Source: a virus. From it: DNA of 35,337 nucleotides. The position numbers were made by a program, and so were the translations under genes. Location: IMG/VR virus record IMGVR_UViG_3300037502_000212, positions 1 through 35,337 of that record; one strand, written 5' to 3'. Below are positions 14,090 through 25,274 of this stretch, piece by piece. The first letter of the stretch is position 1. Every line of letters begins with the position of its first letter. The notes under the pieces were generated by a model. The model did not search any database, was not told the DNA's origin, and worked only from the letters and a program-made list of their open reading frames with translations.

Positions 14090-14113
14090 AAAACCGGCTC
14101 ACGCCGGTTTTTT
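14090..14113. terminator. Bidirectional intrinsic terminator
   Basis: The inverted repeat AAAACCGGC / GCCGGTTTT (14090-14098 with 14103-14111), loop TCAC, is followed by a six-T run on the plus strand. On the minus strand it is followed by TTATTTTAG. It lies between converging genes (the 71-residue gene and the primase), so it can end both transcripts. Confidence 0.9.
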
Positions 14114-16650
14114 CATTCATCCTCATCGTCGTATTTGTACTTGTTCTTTTTATCGTCCATCGTATCGGGGTCATAACCCTTGATTATTTTTCGTTCATAA
14201 CCCTTGGCCGTAGCATACCGGTAGATGTAATCCGCATGTCGCTGCCTGGCCTTTAATACTTCTTTTCTGTAGTCCTTGAATGCTTCGGAGATGCTTGGAT
14301 TTATGGCCCATGTAACGCGCTTCTTGTTAAGTTCGTTTTCCACTTGAATAACCCATCCGGCATTTTCTAAAGTCAACATGGCATCCATTACGGCCTGCTC
14401 TTTTTGCCAGTCTGTCCTACCCTCTAACGGTCTACGTGCTGATTTTTTCAGGTCACGCAGCGTAATCGTCTGGACGTCGCTGCTAATCTGCACAATGTAG
14501 TCAATAACCCACTGGTCAAAATCGTGCTCTATTGCGCCGCCTACTTCGCCAAACGCATAGCGATATGCTGGAATAATGTAACCACGTACAAGCGACACAA
14601 CCCTATGCACAATGTCTGCCTGCACCTGGGGCATAAATGGCGATTCAATGATGTGAAATAACAAGATAAGCCTACCGGCTAAACCTTCCAGCTTACCAAA
14701 CGCAGTCATGTATACGTCACCGCTGTTAATCACTCGCTCATCGCGCTTTGCATCCTCATACCATGCTTGGAACTCACGATACGCCATGTATGCTTCGAAT
14801 GACAATTGATAGGTCTGAGGTGGTAAAGAATAAGTCAAACGCAGGGTGTTTTCCCATGCTGCTGCACTAGTCATACACTCTGGTACTGGCTGGCCTAGTT
14901 TAGTCTTACCTGCACGCAATATGCCTGGTATGAAGCGTTGCAGTAGTCCATCTGCTGCTAATGATGCTACATTTTGTTTAAACACTGTCGGCTGGATATT
15001 GCCGTAAATTGATACTGCCAGATTCTCACAATGAATAGAACCAGCACCGACACGATCCATCTCGTAGTGCTCTGACTCATACGACACAACCCATGCTGAC
15101 CTATCTTCTCCGCTGCTCTTGTCGGTCAATTTGCGAATCCAGCTATTCATTTCGTCAAGGTGGCACAGTAAGCCACGTGGACGGTCGGCGGCAGAACGTA
15201 CTAGTTTCTGGCTGGTAATGTCGGACACTGTGATTTTTAATGGCACTGGTTGTGGTGGCATTTCTGTAACTGTTGGTGCTTGGTCTGACCCCAACATGGC
15301 TTCGGGACTGGCTGACCATTCAAGGAATGCTTTTTTAGAACTGGCGTATGCTGCTTCTTTACCTTCCCAATCGAGTAGTTCTTTGGCGTATCGTGGTCTA
15401 TCTTCTGCTTCAATGTTGCGCAAAGGCGATAACATCGGACGACTACCTGGAGACTTTTTATCTGCCGGGTCGCCTAGTGTCATAAGCCACAACACTGGCG
15501 GCACTTTAAAGCCTGGCATTAATTCAAGTCTGATACGTGCATCAACAACACCGCAGATGGCAGCTAGACCTGCGAACAATGGTACCAAAGGGTCACAACC
15601 TACACTCTCTGATATTTCAGATGAACGCTGACGCAGGATTTCAGGCCATAAATCAATGTTCATCTCTGGGGGCTTTGGGCGCAGATTGTCCAGCAAACTA
15701 AGCGGCTCCATAGCTGGCGTGTCAACTTTAGCGAACAATGCCGACGCATCGGGCATGGGTCGAACCCATCCATGCTGACGGGCGATGTGGAACAGTGTTC
15801 CAAGTTTTACTGCCGTTGACTTGTCGGATTTAAAGCTATGCCACTGGATGAGTATTTCTCGCTCGCCTGGGTATTTGTTCTGTCCGGTCTGGCTCCAGTC
15901 GTGCCATAGTTGCAACGCTTGGTCTATCTGCTCTGTCTGCGTACCAGCCCAATGTAACGCCATGCCGATGTTTATCCACTCGTCACGCGAACAATCGGCT
16001 GATATGTATTCAAGTGCTTGTCTAATCTCTGTCCAGTTGGTAGCAATACCGGCGTTGTGGTCAATGGTGCACTCGTTATCCTGCTCTAGTAACGATTGCC
16101 ACAAGTCGAACAATGCTTGGGGTATCATGGGAAGGTTTGTCCACTGCCCACGTCCTGACCACTGGTAAGGTCTGAGTGTTTCAGGATGGATGCTTGGTGG
16201 TAACACGTCCTGCACCGTTAGACCATTCGATGTGGCACAGCGTAACTCATACACAGTCACGCCATTATGCACAATCTTTTTCGATGGTAGCGTTAGACCA
16301 AACGGCATACCATAAAGCAGTTTACCGTGTCCAGCCTTACCGCTATTAATAATTACGGCATCTATTGCATCGTATAATTCTTGCAGGTTTATGTTGTTTT
16401 TACGCAACAATTCAACGGCTCTGTCCCAATTATCAATATCAAGTGCCATCGTACCGCTGTACGCATGGGCAAGACCAATACCAAAGCCTGATGGTAAATC
16501 GGTATGACTTCGCAGGGCATTTTCTTTACGGTTCCATCCTGGTGTGCGTGGACCCTTGGTGCCAAAGGGAATAGGAACAAGGCTCCAGCCGTGTCGGATG
16601 TAGAGGTCTACTGATGCTGGATGCTGTTGTATGGTTTGAACGGCTGTCAT
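14113..16650 (-). CDS. Prim-Pol / DUF3987 primase-helicase
   Basis: 845 residues. Residues 10-185 form a bifunctional primase-polymerase domain of the AEP type: LDIDNW (70-75, Asp71 and Asp73), SGKAGHGKLLY (103-113) and YELRCATSN with PPSIHP. Residues about 205-295 are a PriCT-2 domain (EIRQALEYISADCSRDEW). From about 330 a DUF3987 domain follows, with a degenerate Walker A (GDPADKKS, 393-400), Walker B LCHLDE (495-500) and SIYGNIQP. The C-terminus is strongly charged and acidic. The enzyme would prime and probably unwind phage DNA. It is the only early-type gene on the minus strand. Its start at 16650 faces the ribbon-helix-helix gene. Confidence 0.88.
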   Translation of the reverse strand: MTAVQTIQQHPASVDLYIRHGWSLVPIPFGTKGPRTPGWNRKENALRSHTDLPSGFGIGLAHAYSGTMALDIDNWDRAVELLRKNNINLQELYDAIDAVIINSGKAGHGKLLYGMPFGLTLPSKKIVHNGVTVYELRCATSNGLTVQDVLPPSIHPETLRPYQWSGRGQWTNLPMIPQALFDLWQSLLEQDNECTIDHNAGIATNWTEIRQALEYISADCSRDEWINIGMALHWAGTQTEQIDQALQLWHDWSQTGQNKYPGEREILIQWHSFKSDKSTAVKLGTLFHIARQHGWVRPMPDASALFAKVDTPAMEPLSLLDNLRPKPPEMNIDLWPEILRQRSSEISESVGCDPLVPLFAGLAAICGVVDARIRLELMPGFKVPPVLWLMTLGDPADKKSPGSRPMLSPLRNIEAEDRPRYAKELLDWEGKEAAYASSKKAFLEWSASPEAMLGSDQAPTVTEMPPQPVPLKITVSDITSQKLVRSAADRPRGLLCHLDEMNSWIRKLTDKSSGEDRSAWVVSYESEHYEMDRVGAGSIHCENLAVSIYGNIQPTVFKQNVASLAADGLLQRFIPGILRAGKTKLGQPVPECMTSAAAWENTLRLTYSLPPQTYQLSFEAYMAYREFQAWYEDAKRDERVINSGDVYMTAFGKLEGLAGRLILLFHIIESPFMPQVQADIVHRVVSLVRGYIIPAYRYAFGEVGGAIEHDFDQWVIDYIVQISSDVQTITLRDLKKSARRPLEGRTDWQKEQAVMDAMLTLENAGWVIQVENELNKKRVTWAINPSISEAFKDYRKEVLKARQRHADYIYRYATAKGYERKIIKGYDPDTMDDKKNKYKYDDEDE

Positions 16651-16923: not shown

Positions 16924-17401
16924 TTCCACAATCCAGATGATTGCACAAGCCATTATCGCCAACACAAAAGTAATTCAGTCATTGATTGATGCGTTACCCC
17001 ATGAAACTAAACAAGCTGTTGCAGAAGTAGTTGCACCTGCTCCAGTTGTTAAAGCACCCGAACCTGTAGCTGCTCCAGTAGTTGCGCCTGTTGTGGCTCC
17101 TTTACCTACACCTGCTCCAGTGGTTGCGCCTACACCCGCACCTGCACCCGCTATGCCAGCACCGCCTACATTCGCACCTGCTGCACCTGCACCCGTAGCT
17201 GCTCCTAGTGCTGCTGCACCGTTTACCGATGGTAAAGGTCTGATTGATTATGTAATGGCTGCATATCGCACGATGGGACCGCAGAAGGGTGCACAGATTC
17301 AGAATGTGCTCACTGGTCTGGGTTATCAGAACATCAATGATATTAAACAGTCCGACTATGCTGCACTGTTTGCAGGTATTGAAGCCCTGAAAGTATCGTA
17401 A
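16916..17401 (+). CDS. Protein with long Ala/Pro/Val linker and small C-terminal domain
   Basis: 161 residues. A short helical N-terminus (1-45) is followed by about 65 residues made almost only of Ala, Pro and Val in repeats such as APVVAP and PAPAPA. A compact C-terminal domain (105-161) contains KGLIDYVMAAYRTMGPQKGA, then VLTGLGYQNINDIK and AALFAGIEAL. I recall similar proteins beside DUF2800/DUF2815 genes. The C-domain resembles those found in phage SSB-adjacent proteins but has no assigned function. The linker suggests a tether between two binding partners, perhaps DNA or polymerase and a partner. It joins the nuclease gene through TAATG. Confidence 0.6.
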   Translation: MNDSTIQMIAQAIIANTKVIQSLIDALPHETKQAVAEVVAPAPVVKAPEPVAAPVVAPVVAPLPTPAPVVAPTPAPAPAMPAPPTFAPAAPAPVAAPSAAAPFTDGKGLIDYVMAAYRTMGPQKGAQIQNVLTGLGYQNINDIKQSDYAALFAGIEALKVS

Positions 17402-18708
17402 TGACTACACACGCTCAACTATCACCATCCAAGCGGCACCGTTGGGCGTTATGTCCTGGCAGTGTACGCGAGGAAGCTAAATACCCTGATGAGCGTAGTG
17501 GTGCCGCTGCTATTGATGGCACCCATTCGCACACGTTGCTAGAGCACTGCATCAAGGCTGGTCTGGCAAACCCTTTGAACATGGTCGGTGTAAAGTTAAA
17601 AGACGATGATGGAGAGTTTGTTGTTGACCAGTCACGCGCTGAACGTGTCAAGGTTGCGATTGACTACATTGCCGGACACATTGCAGCGTTCTACGAAAAC
17701 GCCGAAGTCATATCTGAGAAGCGTGTCAATCCTTCATGGTTTACAGGTCGTGATGACTTGTCGGGCACAGTGGATTGTCAGATTGTTGCTAATGATACGC
17801 TAGAAATAATCGACTACAAAGATGGTATGGCACCGGTTGAAGCTGAAAACAATATGCAACTTGAACAGTATGCGATTGGTAAGTTAGCGGAATATCGGTT
17901 ACCAATCAATATGCCGCAGATGTATCCATTCAAACGAGTTCGAATGACCATTATTCAACCCAAACTTGCTTTAAAAGGTATGAATCCAGTGGTATCATGG
18001 GATGTACCAGTGTCGTATCTATTACAACGTGTTGATGTGTTAACTCGTGAAGCATTAGCTACAGATGCGCTAAATGCGCCGCTGGTATCAGGTGAAAGTC
18101 AATGTAAATATTGTCGTGCAAAGGGTTCATGCTCTGCGCTGGCAAGTAATGTAATGAAAGAGATTGGTGTTATGTTTCAACCTGTAAAAACTGACGTGTT
18201 AGACGTCGCGCAACAAAGCGCAAACAAAGACCCTGCTGTTATGTCTGATGACCAAATCAGGCAAATCATGGAAGCAGCACCCTTAATGCGACAACTCATT
18301 GAGGGTGTAGAGAAGGAAGCGCAACGCCGCCTTGAAGCTGGTCAATCAATACCTGGTCTTAAACTGGTTAATGGTCGTGGTTCACGTGCTTGGGTGTTAC
18401 CTGAACATGAAATGGCTGAAAAGCTAATCAAGATGGGTATTCCTAAGACTGCTATCTATGAAACCAAACTTGTGTCACCAGCTAAGGCTGAGAAACTATC
18501 GTGGGAAAAACGTGATGGTACTAAGGTATCACTCACTGACCGACAATTGAAGTTAATGAATCAGGAGTATGTTTCTAAACTCGCTGGTAAGTTAACTGTA
18601 GTTCCCGAATCTGACGCGCGTCCTGCCGTCACAACGAATGCAGCACCTATGTTTGCTGCTGTAGAAGTAGCACCCGCTACTGAATCCTTGCCATCTTGGC
18701 TCATGTAA
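17401..18708 (+). CDS. Cas4/RecB-like nuclease (DUF2800)
   Basis: 435 residues. It has the PD-(D/E)xK order of the RecB/Cas4 type: GTHSHTLLEH (40-49), GTVD (Asp125), EIIDYKDG (135-142, Asp138 and Lys140) and QLEQYA (153-158). Four Cys could hold an iron-sulfur cluster as in Cas4 and AddB: Cys18 (LCPGS) and Cys235, Cys238 and Cys244 (CKYCRAKGSC). The N-terminal SPSKRHRWALCPGS is typical of DUF2800. The predicted role is an exonuclease in phage recombination or DNA end processing, acting with the ssDNA-binding-type protein encoded next. It is sixteen bases upstream of that gene. Confidence 0.85.
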   Translation: MTTHAQLSPSKRHRWALCPGSVREEAKYPDERSGAAAIDGTHSHTLLEHCIKAGLANPLNMVGVKLKDDDGEFVVDQSRAERVKVAIDYIAGHIAAFYENAEVISEKRVNPSWFTGRDDLSGTVDCQIVANDTLEIIDYKDGMAPVEAENNMQLEQYAIGKLAEYRLPINMPQMYPFKRVRMTIIQPKLALKGMNPVVSWDVPVSYLLQRVDVLTREALATDALNAPLVSGESQCKYCRAKGSCSALASNVMKEIGVMFQPVKTDVLDVAQQSANKDPAVMSDDQIRQIMEAAPLMRQLIEGVEKEAQRRLEAGQSIPGLKLVNGRGSRAWVLPEHEMAEKLIKMGIPKTAIYETKLVSPAKAEKLSWEKRDGTKVSLTDRQLKLMNQEYVSKLAGKLTVVPESDARPAVTTNAAPMFAAVEVAPATESLPSWLM

Positions 18709-18725: not shown

Positions 18726-19391
18726 ATGTCTGATATTGTATTTTTATCCAACGTCCGTTTGTGTTTTCCACACCTCGCAGACCCGCAGAAGCAGGTTAAC
18801 GAAGTCACTGGTGCAACTCGAATTAGCTATAACTGCGAGTTCTTGATGCCACAAGACCATCCTGGCTTTCAACAATTCATGGCACGTTATGGTGCCTTGG
18901 CATTGGAGAAGTGGAAAGAACACGCTCAAGCCGTGATGGGAATGATTCAGCAAGATCGTAAGACCCGCTGCTTTGGTCAAGGTAACGAGAAGGTTAACAA
19001 GAAAACTTTTCAACCTTACGATGGGTATGCTGGTAACGTTTACATTACTGCTGGTCGTGACTCTGCGCCACAGATGATTCAGGCAGATGGTACTGCTATT
19101 GACCCGAATAATACTATGGCGTATCAAACACTGGCACGTAAGATGTATGGTGGTTGCCGTGTCAACGCTGCTGTAAAGCCTTGGACACAAGACAACAAGC
19201 ATGGTCGCGGTATTCGTTGCGATTTAATTGCCATACAGTTTGCCGCCGATGATAAACCGTTTGGTGAAGGAGTTGCTGATGCGTCTAACTTGTTTGGCGC
19301 GGTACAACAAGCCGCTGTTTCTGGATTTGCCGCCAGTGCACAACCTGCTATGCCTGCTGCACCGTTTGGTATGCCGTCGTTCTTAGGCTAA
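18726..19391 (+). CDS. DUF2815 protein, ssDNA-binding type
   Basis: 221 residues from ATG 18726, chosen because AGGAG (18713-18717) is well placed. Longer forms upstream have no such site. It begins MSDIVFLSNVRLCFPHLADP, contains KTFQPYDGYAGNVYITAGRD and NNTMAYQTLARKMYGGCRV, then GIRCDLIAIQFAADDKPFGE, and ends in a low-complexity tail rich in Ala, Pro and Met. DUF2815 proteins are regarded as single-strand DNA-binding proteins comparable to T7 gp2.5. Typical members have an acidic tail, which this one lacks. The pairing with DUF2800 is common in phages. Confidence 0.8.
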   Translation: MSDIVFLSNVRLCFPHLADPQKQVNEVTGATRISYNCEFLMPQDHPGFQQFMARYGALALEKWKEHAQAVMGMIQQDRKTRCFGQGNEKVNKKTFQPYDGYAGNVYITAGRDSAPQMIQADGTAIDPNNTMAYQTLARKMYGGCRVNAAVKPWTQDNKHGRGIRCDLIAIQFAADDKPFGEGVADASNLFGAVQQAAVSGFAASAQPAMPAAPFGMPSFLG

Positions 19392-19398
19392 TTATTAG

Positions 19399-19487
19399 GG
19401 GGCTGTTAAGCAGACATTCGAGGATGTTGATGTGTGCGGTTTTTCTGCTTTCACGCGCACCATGTCAAAGACCAAATCGAAGCCCCG
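19399..19487 (+). ncRNA. Structured leader with predicted pseudoknot before DNA polymerase
   Basis: An outer helix P1 (GGGGCT 19400-19405 with AGCCCC 19481-19486) encloses P2 (AAGCAGA 19409-19415 with TCTGCTT 19444-19450). Inside the P2 loop there is a small hairpin (19416-19427). A further strand, GTGTGCG (19433-19439), pairs with CGCGCAC (19454-19460) beyond P2, which makes an H-type pseudoknot (one G-U). The element fills the gap between the DUF2815 and polymerase genes and ends about 23 bases before the polymerase start. A closed, knotted fold of this size suggests a cis-regulator, but it is predicted by eye only. Confidence 0.5.
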
Positions 19488-19509
19488 CCTACTGTAAAGA
19501 GTAAATGTA

Positions 19510-21345
19510 ATGCGTGACTACATCTATGATATTGAAACATACCCTAATGTGTTTACGTTAGCGGTTGAGCACGCTGAACTGCCTATGCAGTGGTATTTTG
19601 AGATTAGCGATTGGCGCAATGATTCGCGTGAAATAGTAGAGTTCTTGCGTTACCTTAAAGAATCCAACGCCCGCATGGTTGGTTTTAATAACCTTGGCTT
19701 TGACTATCCTGTACTACACCAACTTATCCGCATGGGTGTGAGTTCAGCACACACCCTTTATGAAAAGGCGCAAGCGATTATCAACGCGCAAGATGACGAT
19801 AACAAGTGGATACATCAAGTTAATCCGTCTGACCGGTTCGTGGAGCAGATTGATTTATTCAAGATACATCATTTTGACAACAAGTCGCGTACTACTAGCT
19901 TGAAGTCTTTGCAATTCAATATGCGCTCCGACACTATTCAGGACTTACCTTTTCCCGTAGGTACTGTATTGACCCGTGAGCAAGTCGAAGTGTTGAAGGT
20001 TTACAACAAGCATGATGTACAGAAAACCAAGGTTTTTTATGCACATACTCAGGATATGTTAAGTTTTCGCGAAAATCTTAACACGTTGTATTCTGGCAAA
20101 GACTGGCTCAATTACAACGACACTAAGATTGGTAAAGACTTCTTTGTAATGAAGCTGGAAGAAGCTGGTGTACCTTGTTACGACTACAGTCAAAAGGGAC
20201 GAACACCACGGCAAACAAGACGACCTGTAATCAATTTGCGTGATGCTATCTTGCCATGGATAGAGTTTAAACATCCTGAATTTAATCGAGTGTTGCACTG
20301 GCTTAAGTCACAGTCAATTACTGAAACCAAAGGCGTATTTAATGACCTGACTGCCACAGTGAATGGGTTCACTTTTGTATTCGGATTAGGGGGTATTCAT
20401 GGCTCAGTGGAATCAACAGTGGTGCAATCCGATGACGAGAATATCATCATTGATTTGGACGTTACCAGTTACTACCCCAACCTCGCTATCGTCAACGGTT
20501 TTTACCCTGCCCATCTTGGCAAGGAGTTCGTCAGTATATACAAGCACTTGTTCGAACAGCGCAAGCAGTACCCTAAGAAGTCAGCAGAAAGCGCAATGTT
20601 GAAGTTGGCATTGAATGGTGTGTATGGTGACAGCAACAACCAGTACAGCGTGTTTTACGACCCGTTGTATACCATGACTATTACCCTGAATGGTCAACTA
20701 CTGCTATGTCTGTTAGCGGAGCAGCTAATGACCATATCAGGCTTACGACTGGTGCAGGTCAATACTGATGGTGTAACGGTCACAGTACCACGTAACAAGA
20801 CAAGCGATGTGCAGGGTGCACGTTTGTGGTGGGAGCAGTTAACCGGATTGACGCTTGAAGATGCCACGTACAAACGTATGTCAATTCGTGACGTGAACAA
20901 CTACCTAGCAGAGTACGAAGATGGCAGCGTTAAGCGCAAGGGTGCATACGAGTACAAGGTAGGTTGGCATCAGAACGCAGGTGGTTTAGTGATACCTAAA
21001 GTTGCTGAAAAGGTACTGACTCAAGGCGCACCTATACGACAAACGATTGAGCAATGGTCTGATGTGATGGACTTCATGTTGCGCACCAAGGTACCACGCT
21101 CTAGCTATCTCACATGGGGTGATGAGCGCATACAAAACACTTCGCGCTACTACATTGCCAAAGGTGGTAAGCCGTTGTTCAAGTGGATGCCACCACTAAA
21201 GGGTAAGACCGATTGGCGCAAGATTGGTGTGGAGAGTGGATGGGGTGTGCAAGTCTGCAACGACATAAAAGATGCAGGCAAGCTACCGATTGATTTTGAT
21301 TATTACATTCAAGAAGTGGAGAAATTATGTCTGGGTCTAGCTTAA
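19510..21345 (+). CDS. Family B DNA polymerase with 3'-5' exonuclease
   Basis: 611 residues. The exonuclease motifs are YDIET (6-10), NNLGFDYP (60-67) and YNKHD (165-169). The polymerase motifs are A, DVTSYYPNL (317-325); B, KLALNGVYG (365-373); and C, NTDGV (418-422). In motif C the usual DTDS is NTDG, so the first Asp is Asn while the second, metal-binding Asp420 is kept. The length is short for family B, and I see no terminal-protein insertion that would point to protein priming. It should replicate the genome from primers made by the Prim-Pol enzyme. It shares a GAGTAAATGTAATG start cassette with the gene at 24192. Confidence 0.88.
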   Translation: MRDYIYDIETYPNVFTLAVEHAELPMQWYFEISDWRNDSREIVEFLRYLKESNARMVGFNNLGFDYPVLHQLIRMGVSSAHTLYEKAQAIINAQDDDNKWIHQVNPSDRFVEQIDLFKIHHFDNKSRTTSLKSLQFNMRSDTIQDLPFPVGTVLTREQVEVLKVYNKHDVQKTKVFYAHTQDMLSFRENLNTLYSGKDWLNYNDTKIGKDFFVMKLEEAGVPCYDYSQKGRTPRQTRRPVINLRDAILPWIEFKHPEFNRVLHWLKSQSITETKGVFNDLTATVNGFTFVFGLGGIHGSVESTVVQSDDENIIIDLDVTSYYPNLAIVNGFYPAHLGKEFVSIYKHLFEQRKQYPKKSAESAMLKLALNGVYGDSNNQYSVFYDPLYTMTITLNGQLLLCLLAEQLMTISGLRLVQVNTDGVTVTVPRNKTSDVQGARLWWEQLTGLTLEDATYKRMSIRDVNNYLAEYEDGSVKRKGAYEYKVGWHQNAGGLVIPKVAEKVLTQGAPIRQTIEQWSDVMDFMLRTKVPRSSYLTWGDERIQNTSRYYIAKGGKPLFKWMPPLKGKTDWRKIGVESGWGVQVCNDIKDAGKLPIDFDYYIQEVEKLCLGLA

Positions 21346-21565: not shown

Positions 21566-21850
21566 ATGTTAGAAAAACAAATTGAAGCCAAGGTTTGCGA
21601 ATACGCTAAGACCAAAAACGTACTGGTTTACAAGTTCACCAGTCCTGCTCGAATGGCTGTACCTGACAGATTGTTTATTCGACCTGATGGTAAGGTGTGG
21701 TTTTGCGAATTTAAACGTGAAGGACAAAAGCCTACACCTGCACAAGAACGTGAGCACATTCGACTACAGCAACACAAGGTATCCGTGTTTGTGATTGACA
21801 ACGTAGAAGAAGGCAAGATGATGGTAGACATGATGGTGATGGGATTATGA
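21566..21850 (+). CDS. VRR-NUC nuclease
   Basis: 94 residues from ATG 21566; an upstream TTG would extend it by four residues but is less likely. VRR-NUC features are PDRLF (33-37, Asp34), FCEFK (46-50, Glu48 and Lys50) and QKPTPAQ with Gln60, followed by hydrophobic strand VSVFVID. This is a single-domain PD-(D/E)xK nuclease such as occurs next to phage helicases, where it may cut branched or flapped DNA. The SNF2-type helicase gene lies one gene downstream. It overlaps the next gene by four bases (ATGA). Confidence 0.85.
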   Translation: MLEKQIEAKVCEYAKTKNVLVYKFTSPARMAVPDRLFIRPDGKVWFCEFKREGQKPTPAQEREHIRLQQHKVSVFVIDNVEEGKMMVDMMVMGL

Positions 21851-22443
21851 GCAGTGAAACTACTCTCGCAATTGGAGAATTAGTTGGTGTTATTACTGAT
21901 TGTGTGGACGATGTAGAAGTGAAGTCAATAAGTATTCACGAATGCGGCGCACAGTTTGCTTGTTTATTGAATGGTGTTTGGCATAGCAGATTACCAAAAA
22001 TACATTGGTCTAACGTAGTACGAAATACTCATTACGTATGTTTTGTATTTATGTACAAACAATCAATTATTGGTTGCGCTATCTGGTCAAGTCCCGTTGC
22101 ACAAAACAGAATGAAAAATGGAAAGACTACGTTAGAACTGCGTAGATTAGCCTTGTCTGACGTTTGCCCAAAAAATACAGCAACTAGAGTGATTTCATTG
22201 ATGATTAAACAAATTGTAAAAAAATTCGCAGATATTGAAAAGTTAATTTCTTACCAGGATAAGGAAGTTCATTTAGGAACCATATACAAAGCTGCTAATT
22301 GGTACATCGGTGCGGAAACAGAATTAATAGATTGGAATACATCGTCCAGAAAAAGAAATGTATTGCAGAGCGATTCTGCAAAAATCAGATGGGAATTTGA
22401 TTTACCAAAAACCAATTTACCTTCTTGGTTGCGGAGTAAATAA
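21847..22443 (+). CDS. Mom-like GNAT protein, candidate DNA modification enzyme
   Basis: 198 residues. Two blocks fit Mom-type GNAT proteins: ELRRLALSDVCPKNTATRVI (97-116), the cofactor-binding strand and helix, and LISYQDKEVHLGTIYKAANW (133-152), with the GTIYxAxxW ending of this group. In phage Mu, Mom modifies adenines in DNA and protects it from host restriction. A similar job is inferred here from sequence pattern and from the position in the replication genes. A plain acetyltransferase of another target cannot be excluded. It overlaps the VRR-NUC gene (ATGA) and the helicase gene (TAATG). Confidence 0.6.
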   Translation: MSSETTLAIGELVGVITDCVDDVEVKSISIHECGAQFACLLNGVWHSRLPKIHWSNVVRNTHYVCFVFMYKQSIIGCAIWSSPVAQNRMKNGKTTLELRRLALSDVCPKNTATRVISLMIKQIVKKFADIEKLISYQDKEVHLGTIYKAANWYIGAETELIDWNTSSRKRNVLQSDSAKIRWEFDLPKTNLPSWLRSK

Positions 22444-24404: not shown

Positions 24405-24636
24405 AGTTAAAGACGCATTATTTGATTCTGACTACAGGATTGACGGTAGCGGTGCAGCAGTAGTTGACGCATCATATTACTGGCAACCTTTAGAAACTTG
24501 TCCATGTGGTGTCAAAGTGCAGTTGCTTGGTAAAAGCGGTGTAGCTATGTACGGGCAACTGACACCCAAAACTAAAGCAGAAGCATTCTTTAGCCATTGG
24601 GCACCATTACCAAAAATACCAAAGGAATCAAAATGA
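24397..24636 (+). CDS. DUF551-like small protein
   Basis: 79 residues, overlapping the preceding gene by eight bases and ThyX by four. The core is YYWQPLETCPCGVKVQLLGK followed by GVAMYGQLTP, and it ends SHWAPLPKIPKESK. The W-PLE-CP...V...L......HWxPLPxxP arrangement resembles DUF551 domains of lambdoid and other phages, which lack a known function. Two Cys (CPC) are present. The tight packing with neighbours supports a real gene. Confidence 0.65.
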   Translation: MGKVKDALFDSDYRIDGSGAAVVDASYYWQPLETCPCGVKVQLLGKSGVAMYGQLTPKTKAEAFFSHWAPLPKIPKESK

Positions 24637-25274
24637 CTGTTAAACTAATCTGGGCTACGCCTGACGCAGATTTTATGATTGCTGCGATTGCTAGGGTATC
24701 AAATCCTTCAAACCAAGCTAACACCAATATAGAGGGGTTATTAAATTACATGATGCGTGAGGGTCACGTATCACCGTTTGAGATGGTTAATGTGTGTGTA
24801 GAAATAAACACAACCCGCGATATAGCACGACAAGTATTGCGTCACCGATCATTCAGTTTTCAGGAGTTTAGCCAACGCTATGCCGACATTGAAACACTCG
24901 GAGAACCAATATTGCGTGAGTGTCGTTTGCAAGATACAAAAAACCGTCAAAACAGTTTACCGTGTGATGATAAATCTTTACAAAAAGATTGGAGAGATTA
25001 TCAATATATAGTCTGGGGTGAGGCTTATTTTAGATACAGAGAAGCAATTAGAAATGGTGTAGCCAAGGAACAAGCCAGAGCGTTATTACCAGAAGGTCTT
25101 ACACCGAGTCGTTTATACATGAACGGAACAATGCGTAGTTGGATACATTACTTGCAAAGTCGTTTACATCCGTCTACGCAAAAAGAGCATAGAGAAATTG
25201 CAGAGAAAATATTAGACATTTGCAGAGAGATTGCGCCAATAACCATAAAAGCATTTTTTAATGAGAAAGCGTAG
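24633..25274 (+). CDS. thyX: FAD-dependent thymidylate synthase
   Basis: 213 residues from ATG 24633, close to the usual ThyX length. The signature RHRSFSFQEFSQRY (70-83) fits RHRx7S exactly, followed by further helices and the C-terminal RSWIHYLQSRLHPSTQKEHR. The enzyme makes dTMP from dUMP with methylene-tetrahydrofolate and FAD. With the MazG-like and DUF3310 proteins it suggests that the phage supports its own DNA precursor supply. The start overlaps the DUF551-like gene (ATGA). Confidence 0.93.
   Translation: MTVKLIWATPDADFMIAAIARVSNPSNQANTNIEGLLNYMMREGHVSPFEMVNVCVEINTTRDIARQVLRHRSFSFQEFSQRYADIETLGEPILRECRLQDTKNRQNSLPCDDKSLQKDWRDYQYIVWGEAYFRYREAIRNGVAKEQARALLPEGLTPSRLYMNGTMRSWIHYLQSRLHPSTQKEHREIAEKILDICREIAPITIKAFFNEKA

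Follow-up and report, generated by a model that had tools for sequence, protein, structure and literature searches.

The question raised by this locus is what a structured RNA does in the gap between two replication genes of a phage. The stretch of DNA that was analysed, here called the window, comprises all 35,337 bases of one IMG/VR virus record and comes from a freshwater phage, in which the gene of a single-stranded DNA-binding protein (SSB; Pfam E 1.6e-16, PHROG E 6.7e-29) precedes that of a DNA polymerase. An initial annotation had placed a pseudoknotted functional RNA ahead of the polymerase gene and suggested that it could set polymerase levels by sensing a replication protein or a metabolite. 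The RNA is borne out by the analysis given below and the sensing is not; we think that the element is best read as a 3'-boundary element of the SSB message, a reading to which we give a probability of about 0.45. The genes around it are the following:

17401-18708, DUF2800 nuclease-like gene, upstream of the SSB gene
18726-19391, + strand, Enc34/gp2.5-like ssDNA-binding protein (SSB) gene (PF10991, phrog_112), stop codon at 19389-19391
19392-19509, SSB-polymerase gap, with the element inside
19510-21345, + strand, family-B-like DNA polymerase gene (phrog_1252, E 5.4e-189), downstream of the element

The window also encodes a prim-pol/DUF3987 gene (14113-16650), a Mom-like DNA modification gene (21847-22443) and a ThyX gene (24597-25274).

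Structure and covariation

The element, for which we use the family name R1, is 88 bases long and is built on a closing stem of 6 bp, a pseudoknot of 7 bp and an apical stem of 7 bp. Its parts in the window are:

19392-19398, + strand, spacer of 7 nt from the SSB stop to the first stem base
19399-19486, + strand, RNA element of family R1 (covariance model from 92 loci)
19399-19404 / 19481-19486, + strand, 5' and 3' strands of the closing stem P1 (compensatory changes at 9 of 9 P1 pairs in the family alignment)
19405-19415, + strand, closing pair G19405-C19415, bounding the loop that bears a pseudoknot strand
19408-19414, + strand, pseudoknot 5' strand AAGCAGA (99.5% paired, 5 of 7 pairs compensatory)
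19418-19421 / 19477-19480, + strand, P2, UCGA / UCGA (3 of 4 pairs invariant)
19422-19425 / 19473-19476, + strand, internal loop GGAU / CAAA (GGAU invariant in 92 sequences)
19426-19428 / 19470-19472, + strand, P3 (99.6% paired, 2 of 3 pairs compensatory)
19432-19438 / 19454-19460, + strand, apical stem P4 (99.3% paired, 6 of 6 family pairs compensatory)
19444-19450, + strand, pseudoknot 3' strand TCTGCTT, within the apical loop, with T-runs on either side

Nested folding of the window element gives -29 kcal/mol (z -2.1), and 7 of 200 shuffles fold equally well. Because this energy alone is only modest, relatives were gathered from IMG/VR both via the SSB protein and by scanning viral contigs for DNA patterns, and the family has at least 105 distinct members among the matches listed. 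Members with long insertions were left out of the alignment, which comprises 92 sequences. The covariance model matches the window at 19393-19491 with 87.4 bits and an E-value of 8e-24, the window copy being part of the training set.

The structure that was scored consists of P1, P2, P3, P4, the pair of columns 13 and 23 and the pseudoknot, 30 pairs altogether, and two-sided compensatory changes are present in 23 of them. Paired cells make up 95.2% of the alignment, versus 80.2% after shuffling and 34.7-50.1% when the structure is slid along it, and two-sided compensatory cells number 425 versus 105 ± 18 in shuffles. The covariation score is 0.481, versus 0.179 ± 0.007 for shuffled alignments, with 0 of 500 shuffles as high, a test that overstates significance because the R1 sequences are related. 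The slid control preserves this relatedness, yet its scores (≤0.107) fall far below that of the true structure. The smaller parts of the fold are likewise backed by the alignment: columns 13/23 (G19405-C19415 in the window) hold G-C in 89 sequences and A-U in 2, and P3 (columns 34-36/83-85) was proposed by RNAalifold and supported by the pair count. The pseudoknot pairs change together, the window having AAGCAGA/UCUGCUU and most members AAGCCAG/CUGGCUU, while the variants AAGCCGC/GCGGCUU (L191) and AAGUCAG/CUGACUU (L087) are still complementary. R1 is a genuine, strongly conserved pseudoknotted RNA, and the earlier view that its stems are unlikely to arise by chance holds because of the covariation, not because of the folding energy.

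The helices first drawn for the window need some redrawing. The closing stem is real, with its 5' arm displaced by one base (19399-19404, not 19400-19405); the helix then called P2 is also real and is the pseudoknot helix, again off by one in the 5' arm; and the former crossing helix is the apical stem P4, at the coordinates given above. A small inner hairpin at 19416-19427 has to be abandoned, since it clashes with both P2 and P3, two stems that the initial annotation did not have, and since its base in column 24 varies between A, G and T opposite an invariant U. The same annotation had named a lack of compensatory changes in homologues, or a conserved short coding frame, as what would speak against such an RNA. 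The former are abundant in the 92 sequences. As for the latter, an ATG at 19424 begins a frame of 26 codons in the window copy, and among the 105 members listed no frame is conserved: 25 stop after 3 codons, the median is 14 with lengths scattered, and the aligned stretch varies between 97 and 102 nt. The short ORF was therefore rejected as a coding sequence.

Paired positions of the alignment contain G-U 133 times and A-C 5 times, and R1 therefore acts as RNA of the gene strand. This asymmetry also bears on the idea of a single-stranded DNA structure, such as a replication start or a packaging or integration hairpin, which the location in a replication module would suit; given the G-U excess such a function is disfavoured, and we hold it to be extremely improbable.

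Comparison with known RNAs

The initial annotation had asked whether the element could be one of the RNA motifs named after DUF2800 and DUF2815, a membership on which a search of Rfam bears insofar as those motifs are among its models. When the window element was searched against Rfam 15 (4227 models), no family of any name passed its cut-off and only three weak matches appeared at E ≤ 1, so R1 is a pseudoknotted family absent from Rfam. The only notable one among these is RF02496, Atu_At1, with 27.3 bits and E 0.022 against a gathering cut-off of 60 bits. Atu_At1 is a small RNA of Rhizobiales, classed in Rfam as an sRNA gene. Its model gives 20.7 bits on one R1 relative (L191) and no match on another (L202); in the reciprocal search, run with filters off on 23 At1 loci, the R1 model gave no match at the At1 sites beyond a 29-nt partial one (E 4.3). 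Membership was rejected on these grounds. Both RNAs appear to have an outer stem, a long arm with internal loops and a GUYAA strand whose pairing partner would be the apical loop, itself of the form UUUU-knot-UUUC. By eye, this arm order and the pairing of UUUU-X-UUUC with GUYAA-X' can be followed in most At1 copies, and on inspection the two sides of the loop pairing have changed together in several of them. Unlike R1, Atu_At1 stands alone in bacterial genomes between unrelated genes. The resemblance is taken here as a lead, not as membership. At1 copies occur in 22 of 199 Rhizobiales genomes; those collected (L412-L434) are sporadic, lie for the most part singly in intergenic DNA and probably form a loop pseudoknot.

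Other searches were empty: blastn of the element against phage and plasmid records found nothing, a pattern scan of bacterial genomes gave only chance matches on inspection among the matches listed, the R1 model found no match on 12 bacterial genomes in a search run without a positive control, and literature searches found no published description of R1. A pseudoknotted RNA family with more than 100 members and clear covariation is missing from Rfam.

Among the closest known systems is the autoregulatory pseudoknot of T4 gene 32, an SSB gene (PMC3014915). In T4, gp32 regulates translation through this mRNA pseudoknot and gp43 through a leader hairpin (PMC3014915). R1 shares with it the combination of a pseudoknot and a phage SSB message; the T4 knot lies 5' of its gene, in the leader, whereas R1 begins 7 nt past the SSB stop, 3' of ssb, and is not linked to a single protein. 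GOLLD and ROOL are also elaborate structured phage RNAs, of unexplained function, with kissing loops and often near tRNA islands (PMC12286853). They measure from ~660 to >800 nt (PMC12286853), in contrast to R1 with its ~90 nt and mostly intercistronic position, and their Rfam models had no match in any scanned locus.

The slot behind the SSB gene

The place of R1 was surveyed in 80 loci (79 relatives and the window), which comprise 62 distinct sequences, many loci being near-identical. In 78 of the 80, a structured stem starts 5-10 nt (mode 7) past the SSB stop, whatever the fold. Many relatives have ORFs of several hundred bases between the element and the polymerase gene, and where genes are inserted there (300-1081 nt) the element stays with SSB. 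Such ORFs are found in L003, L006, L016, L018, L043 and others, and some resemble homing-endonuclease or methyltransferase genes by inspection. Polymerase relatives that have no upstream SSB gene have a small gap or none.

The content of the slot is diverse. Types were assigned by pattern, so that the following counts are approximate: a double hairpin beginning GGGGCCACUGCC in 22 loci, an arm containing GAA/AGUA in about 23, a plain hairpin of the GGGGGC-UUCG-GCCCCC type in 10, R1 in 8, and several rarer folds, some with tRNA-like parts. Two elements stand in tandem behind the SSB gene of L005 (3672-3899), one fold is nested inside another in L056, and L069 has a tRNA-like sequence inside a module (31.4 bits with the Rfam tRNA model; ARAGORN makes no call). 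Phage DSL-LC05 carries one of the slot folds, with a closing stem that has changed and is still complementary. Sashaviruses have a plain hairpin in the orthologous gap, annotated as a terminator in Salmonella phage Sasha, and coliphage Bas82 carries the same hairpin. Judging by these sequences, phages have several RNA structures that can stand in for one another in the SSB slot, and R1 is one of them. Because of this interchangeability, the slot amounts to a natural experiment, with many RNA structures for apparently one task in one place, through which the way that phages adjust SSB relative to polymerase becomes open to test.

These observations weigh against the sensing role first proposed. 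The distance of 5-10 nt from the SSB stop is kept despite ORFs before the polymerase gene, and unrelated folds substitute in the same slot. A metabolite- or protein-sensing riboswitch or attenuator of the polymerase gene would explain the conserved internal loop and pseudoknot, which are aptamer-like; we consider it very unlikely, as the element tracks the SSB gene and not the polymerase, plain hairpins can take its place, and in the window sequence an alternative expression platform is not seen ahead of the polymerase ribosome-binding site.

R1 in other gene contexts

R1 is not confined to this pair of genes. By tblastn, 32 of the 105 members listed precede a 5'-3' exonuclease gene, 15 a PolB gene, 12 a PolA gene and 11 a terminase small-subunit gene. 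The same core before such different genes is a further argument against polymerase-level sensing, and R1 is probably not a polymerase sensor. As to the upstream genes in other R1 lineages, they are probably nucleic-acid-binding, and the evidence that they are SSB genes is weak. In the exonuclease lineage the upstream protein has a predicted N-terminal barrel that is weakly OB-fold-like (Foldseek E 0.02, probability 0.98, mean model confidence 64.6); the structure predicted for the phrog_27714 protein was of too poor quality for use.

An operator, to which SSB or the polymerase would bind so as to adjust translation in the manner of T4 gp32 and gp43, is suggested by analogy: the order SSB-pseudoknot-polymerase has precedents in T4 (PMC3014915). 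We regard it as unlikely, because R1 is 3' of ssb and the T4 gene 32 operator 5' of its gene, because the core of R1 recurs next to genes for unrelated proteins on either side, while this SSB and polymerase can be accompanied by other, unrelated folds in its place, and because the likely polymerase ribosome-binding site, as read from the window sequence, is outside the structure.

The sequence following P1 differs among lineages. A U-run within 10 nt of P1 is present in 28 of 34 copies of the exonuclease lineage, which are terminator-like, versus 3 of 33 in the remaining replication lineages. RNase P processing, suggested by an RCC after P1, was set aside: RCC follows P1 in 25 of 33 copies of three lineages and in only 5 of 34 of the exonuclease lineage. 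In the window, P1 is followed by GCCUACUG and there is no U-tract, so the copy lacks the combination of a GC-rich stem and an immediate U-tract that marks an intrinsic terminator.

About half of the R1 copies are tightly placed between a stop codon and the next gene; others belong to 5' leaders or tandem arrays and have no stop codon immediately before them. A sigma70-like promoter in L267, recognised by consensus match only, ends ~10 nt before the R1 stem, and R1 can therefore be the 5' end of a transcript. Occurrence inside long operons and in the leaders of others would suit a cis-acting processive antiterminator that modifies RNA polymerase, like put or EAR RNAs. We find this quite unlikely: the many unrelated slot folds would all need to bind RNA polymerase, and one lineage has a U-tract at the end of R1 itself.

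A proposed boundary element of the SSB message

Four observations are best fitted by a 3'-boundary element of the SSB message: the element keeps its distance from the SSB stop, it is indifferent to which gene lies downstream, plain hairpins take its place in some loci, and some of its copies look like terminators. The probable nucleic-acid-binding genes upstream of R1 in other lineages, the hairpin annotated as a terminator in phage Sasha and the small or absent gap in polymerase relatives that have no SSB gene upstream point the same way. In the window, the pseudoknotted RNA, on the transcribed strand, closes 7 nt past the SSB stop, where the compact structure would sit just ahead of the terminating ribosome and little naked RNA would be left for exonucleases or Rho. 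The knot might thereby preserve or create a stable 3' end for an abundant SSB message and partly uncouple this message from the downstream replication enzyme, be it polymerase or exonuclease. With a U-tract its action would be terminator-like; without one, it would block decay. We propose that unrelated folds are interchangeable in the slot because any structure would do there that is hard to unfold. Intrinsic terminators and REP-type 3' stabilising hairpins share the position behind a stop codon, and the former share with one R1 lineage the stem plus U-tract; R1 differs in its elaborate conserved pseudoknot instead of a simple loop, and in the window copy without a U-tract. The exonuclease-resistant viral RNAs known as xrRNAs stop 5'-3' enzymes in eukaryotic hosts. 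By analogy, the slot might resemble them in having compact knots of unrelated folds, possibly with one purpose.

Several points stand against the boundary element. Stability alone would not need the invariant GGAU/CAAA and UUUU-knot-UUUC, R1 occurs in 5' leaders and arrays away from stop codons, a U-tract is missing from the window copy, and the case for an SSB upstream of R1 in other lineages is weak. Its invariant GGAU/CAAA loop and its presence in arrays suggest that the R1 module may also do something specific.

Tandem arrays and other modules

Many of the remaining R1 copies are members of noncoding tandem arrays in which they and other modules follow one another in many different orders (L093, L129, L203, L263, L283, L473, L496, L532 and ~50 other loci), and some arrays adjoin tRNA genes. 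The modules are R1, M2 (ACGCATGRGGATTG..CAGTCCYCAGYCGTG), M3, M5, M7 and T2, names coined here, and all except R1 were defined by patterns and inspection, not by covariation tests. The order is, for instance, M7-M2-M3-M2-R1 in L532 and T2-M5-T2-M2-R1 in L496.

These arrays support the principal rival to the boundary element, namely a stable processed noncoding RNA that would be cut from the transcript and work in trans. Phage tRNA clusters contain unexplained stable RNAs, such as T4 RNA C and D, and the company of R1 in arrays of many orders, some beside tRNA genes, could be understood in this way. The nearest Rfam resemblance is, moreover, an sRNA gene standing alone between genes, and the invariant loop motifs suggest a specific partner. 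Against it stands the intercistronic position of about half of the copies, which fit tightly between one gene's stop codon and the following gene, and we see this explanation as possible, though doubtful. R1 may also be relevant to those stable RNAs of phage tRNA clusters that are still unexplained (T4 RNA C/D, GOLLD, ROOL). The R1 motif was not seen on reading the sequences of T4 RNA C and D. T4 rnaC/rnaD (NC_000866, 70908-71171) lie beside tRNA genes, as some arrays do, with no shared motif seen.

We tentatively propose, at somewhat less than even odds, that phages share a stock of small knotted RNA modules, comprising at least six in addition to R1, which would be swapped as cassettes. In the fixed SSB slot a module would stand alone; in tandem noncoding arrays, some of them beside tRNA genes, modules would be shuffled, repeated or nested. 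If true, phages would possess an RNA system that is both combinatorial and exchangeable and that, as far as we know, has not previously been described.

Module M3 (GTGAATGCGCAGGCTGATGCGC..variable..GGAGATCAGCRCCGGCCAC) is widespread in enterobacterial phages, with occurrences in L550-L661, NC_019423 (IME11), OL362274 (HC6) and PQ850597 (Bas80). Its loops GCUGAU and AUCAGC could kiss around a highly variable insert; co-varying versions of these loops were not found among the collected loci, mainly as a consequence of the search pattern, which fixed those bases. In IME11, M3 lies in a noncoding region of ~2 kb, and at L609 (264-330) an int-alpA RNA (RF02996) adjoins the M3 module.
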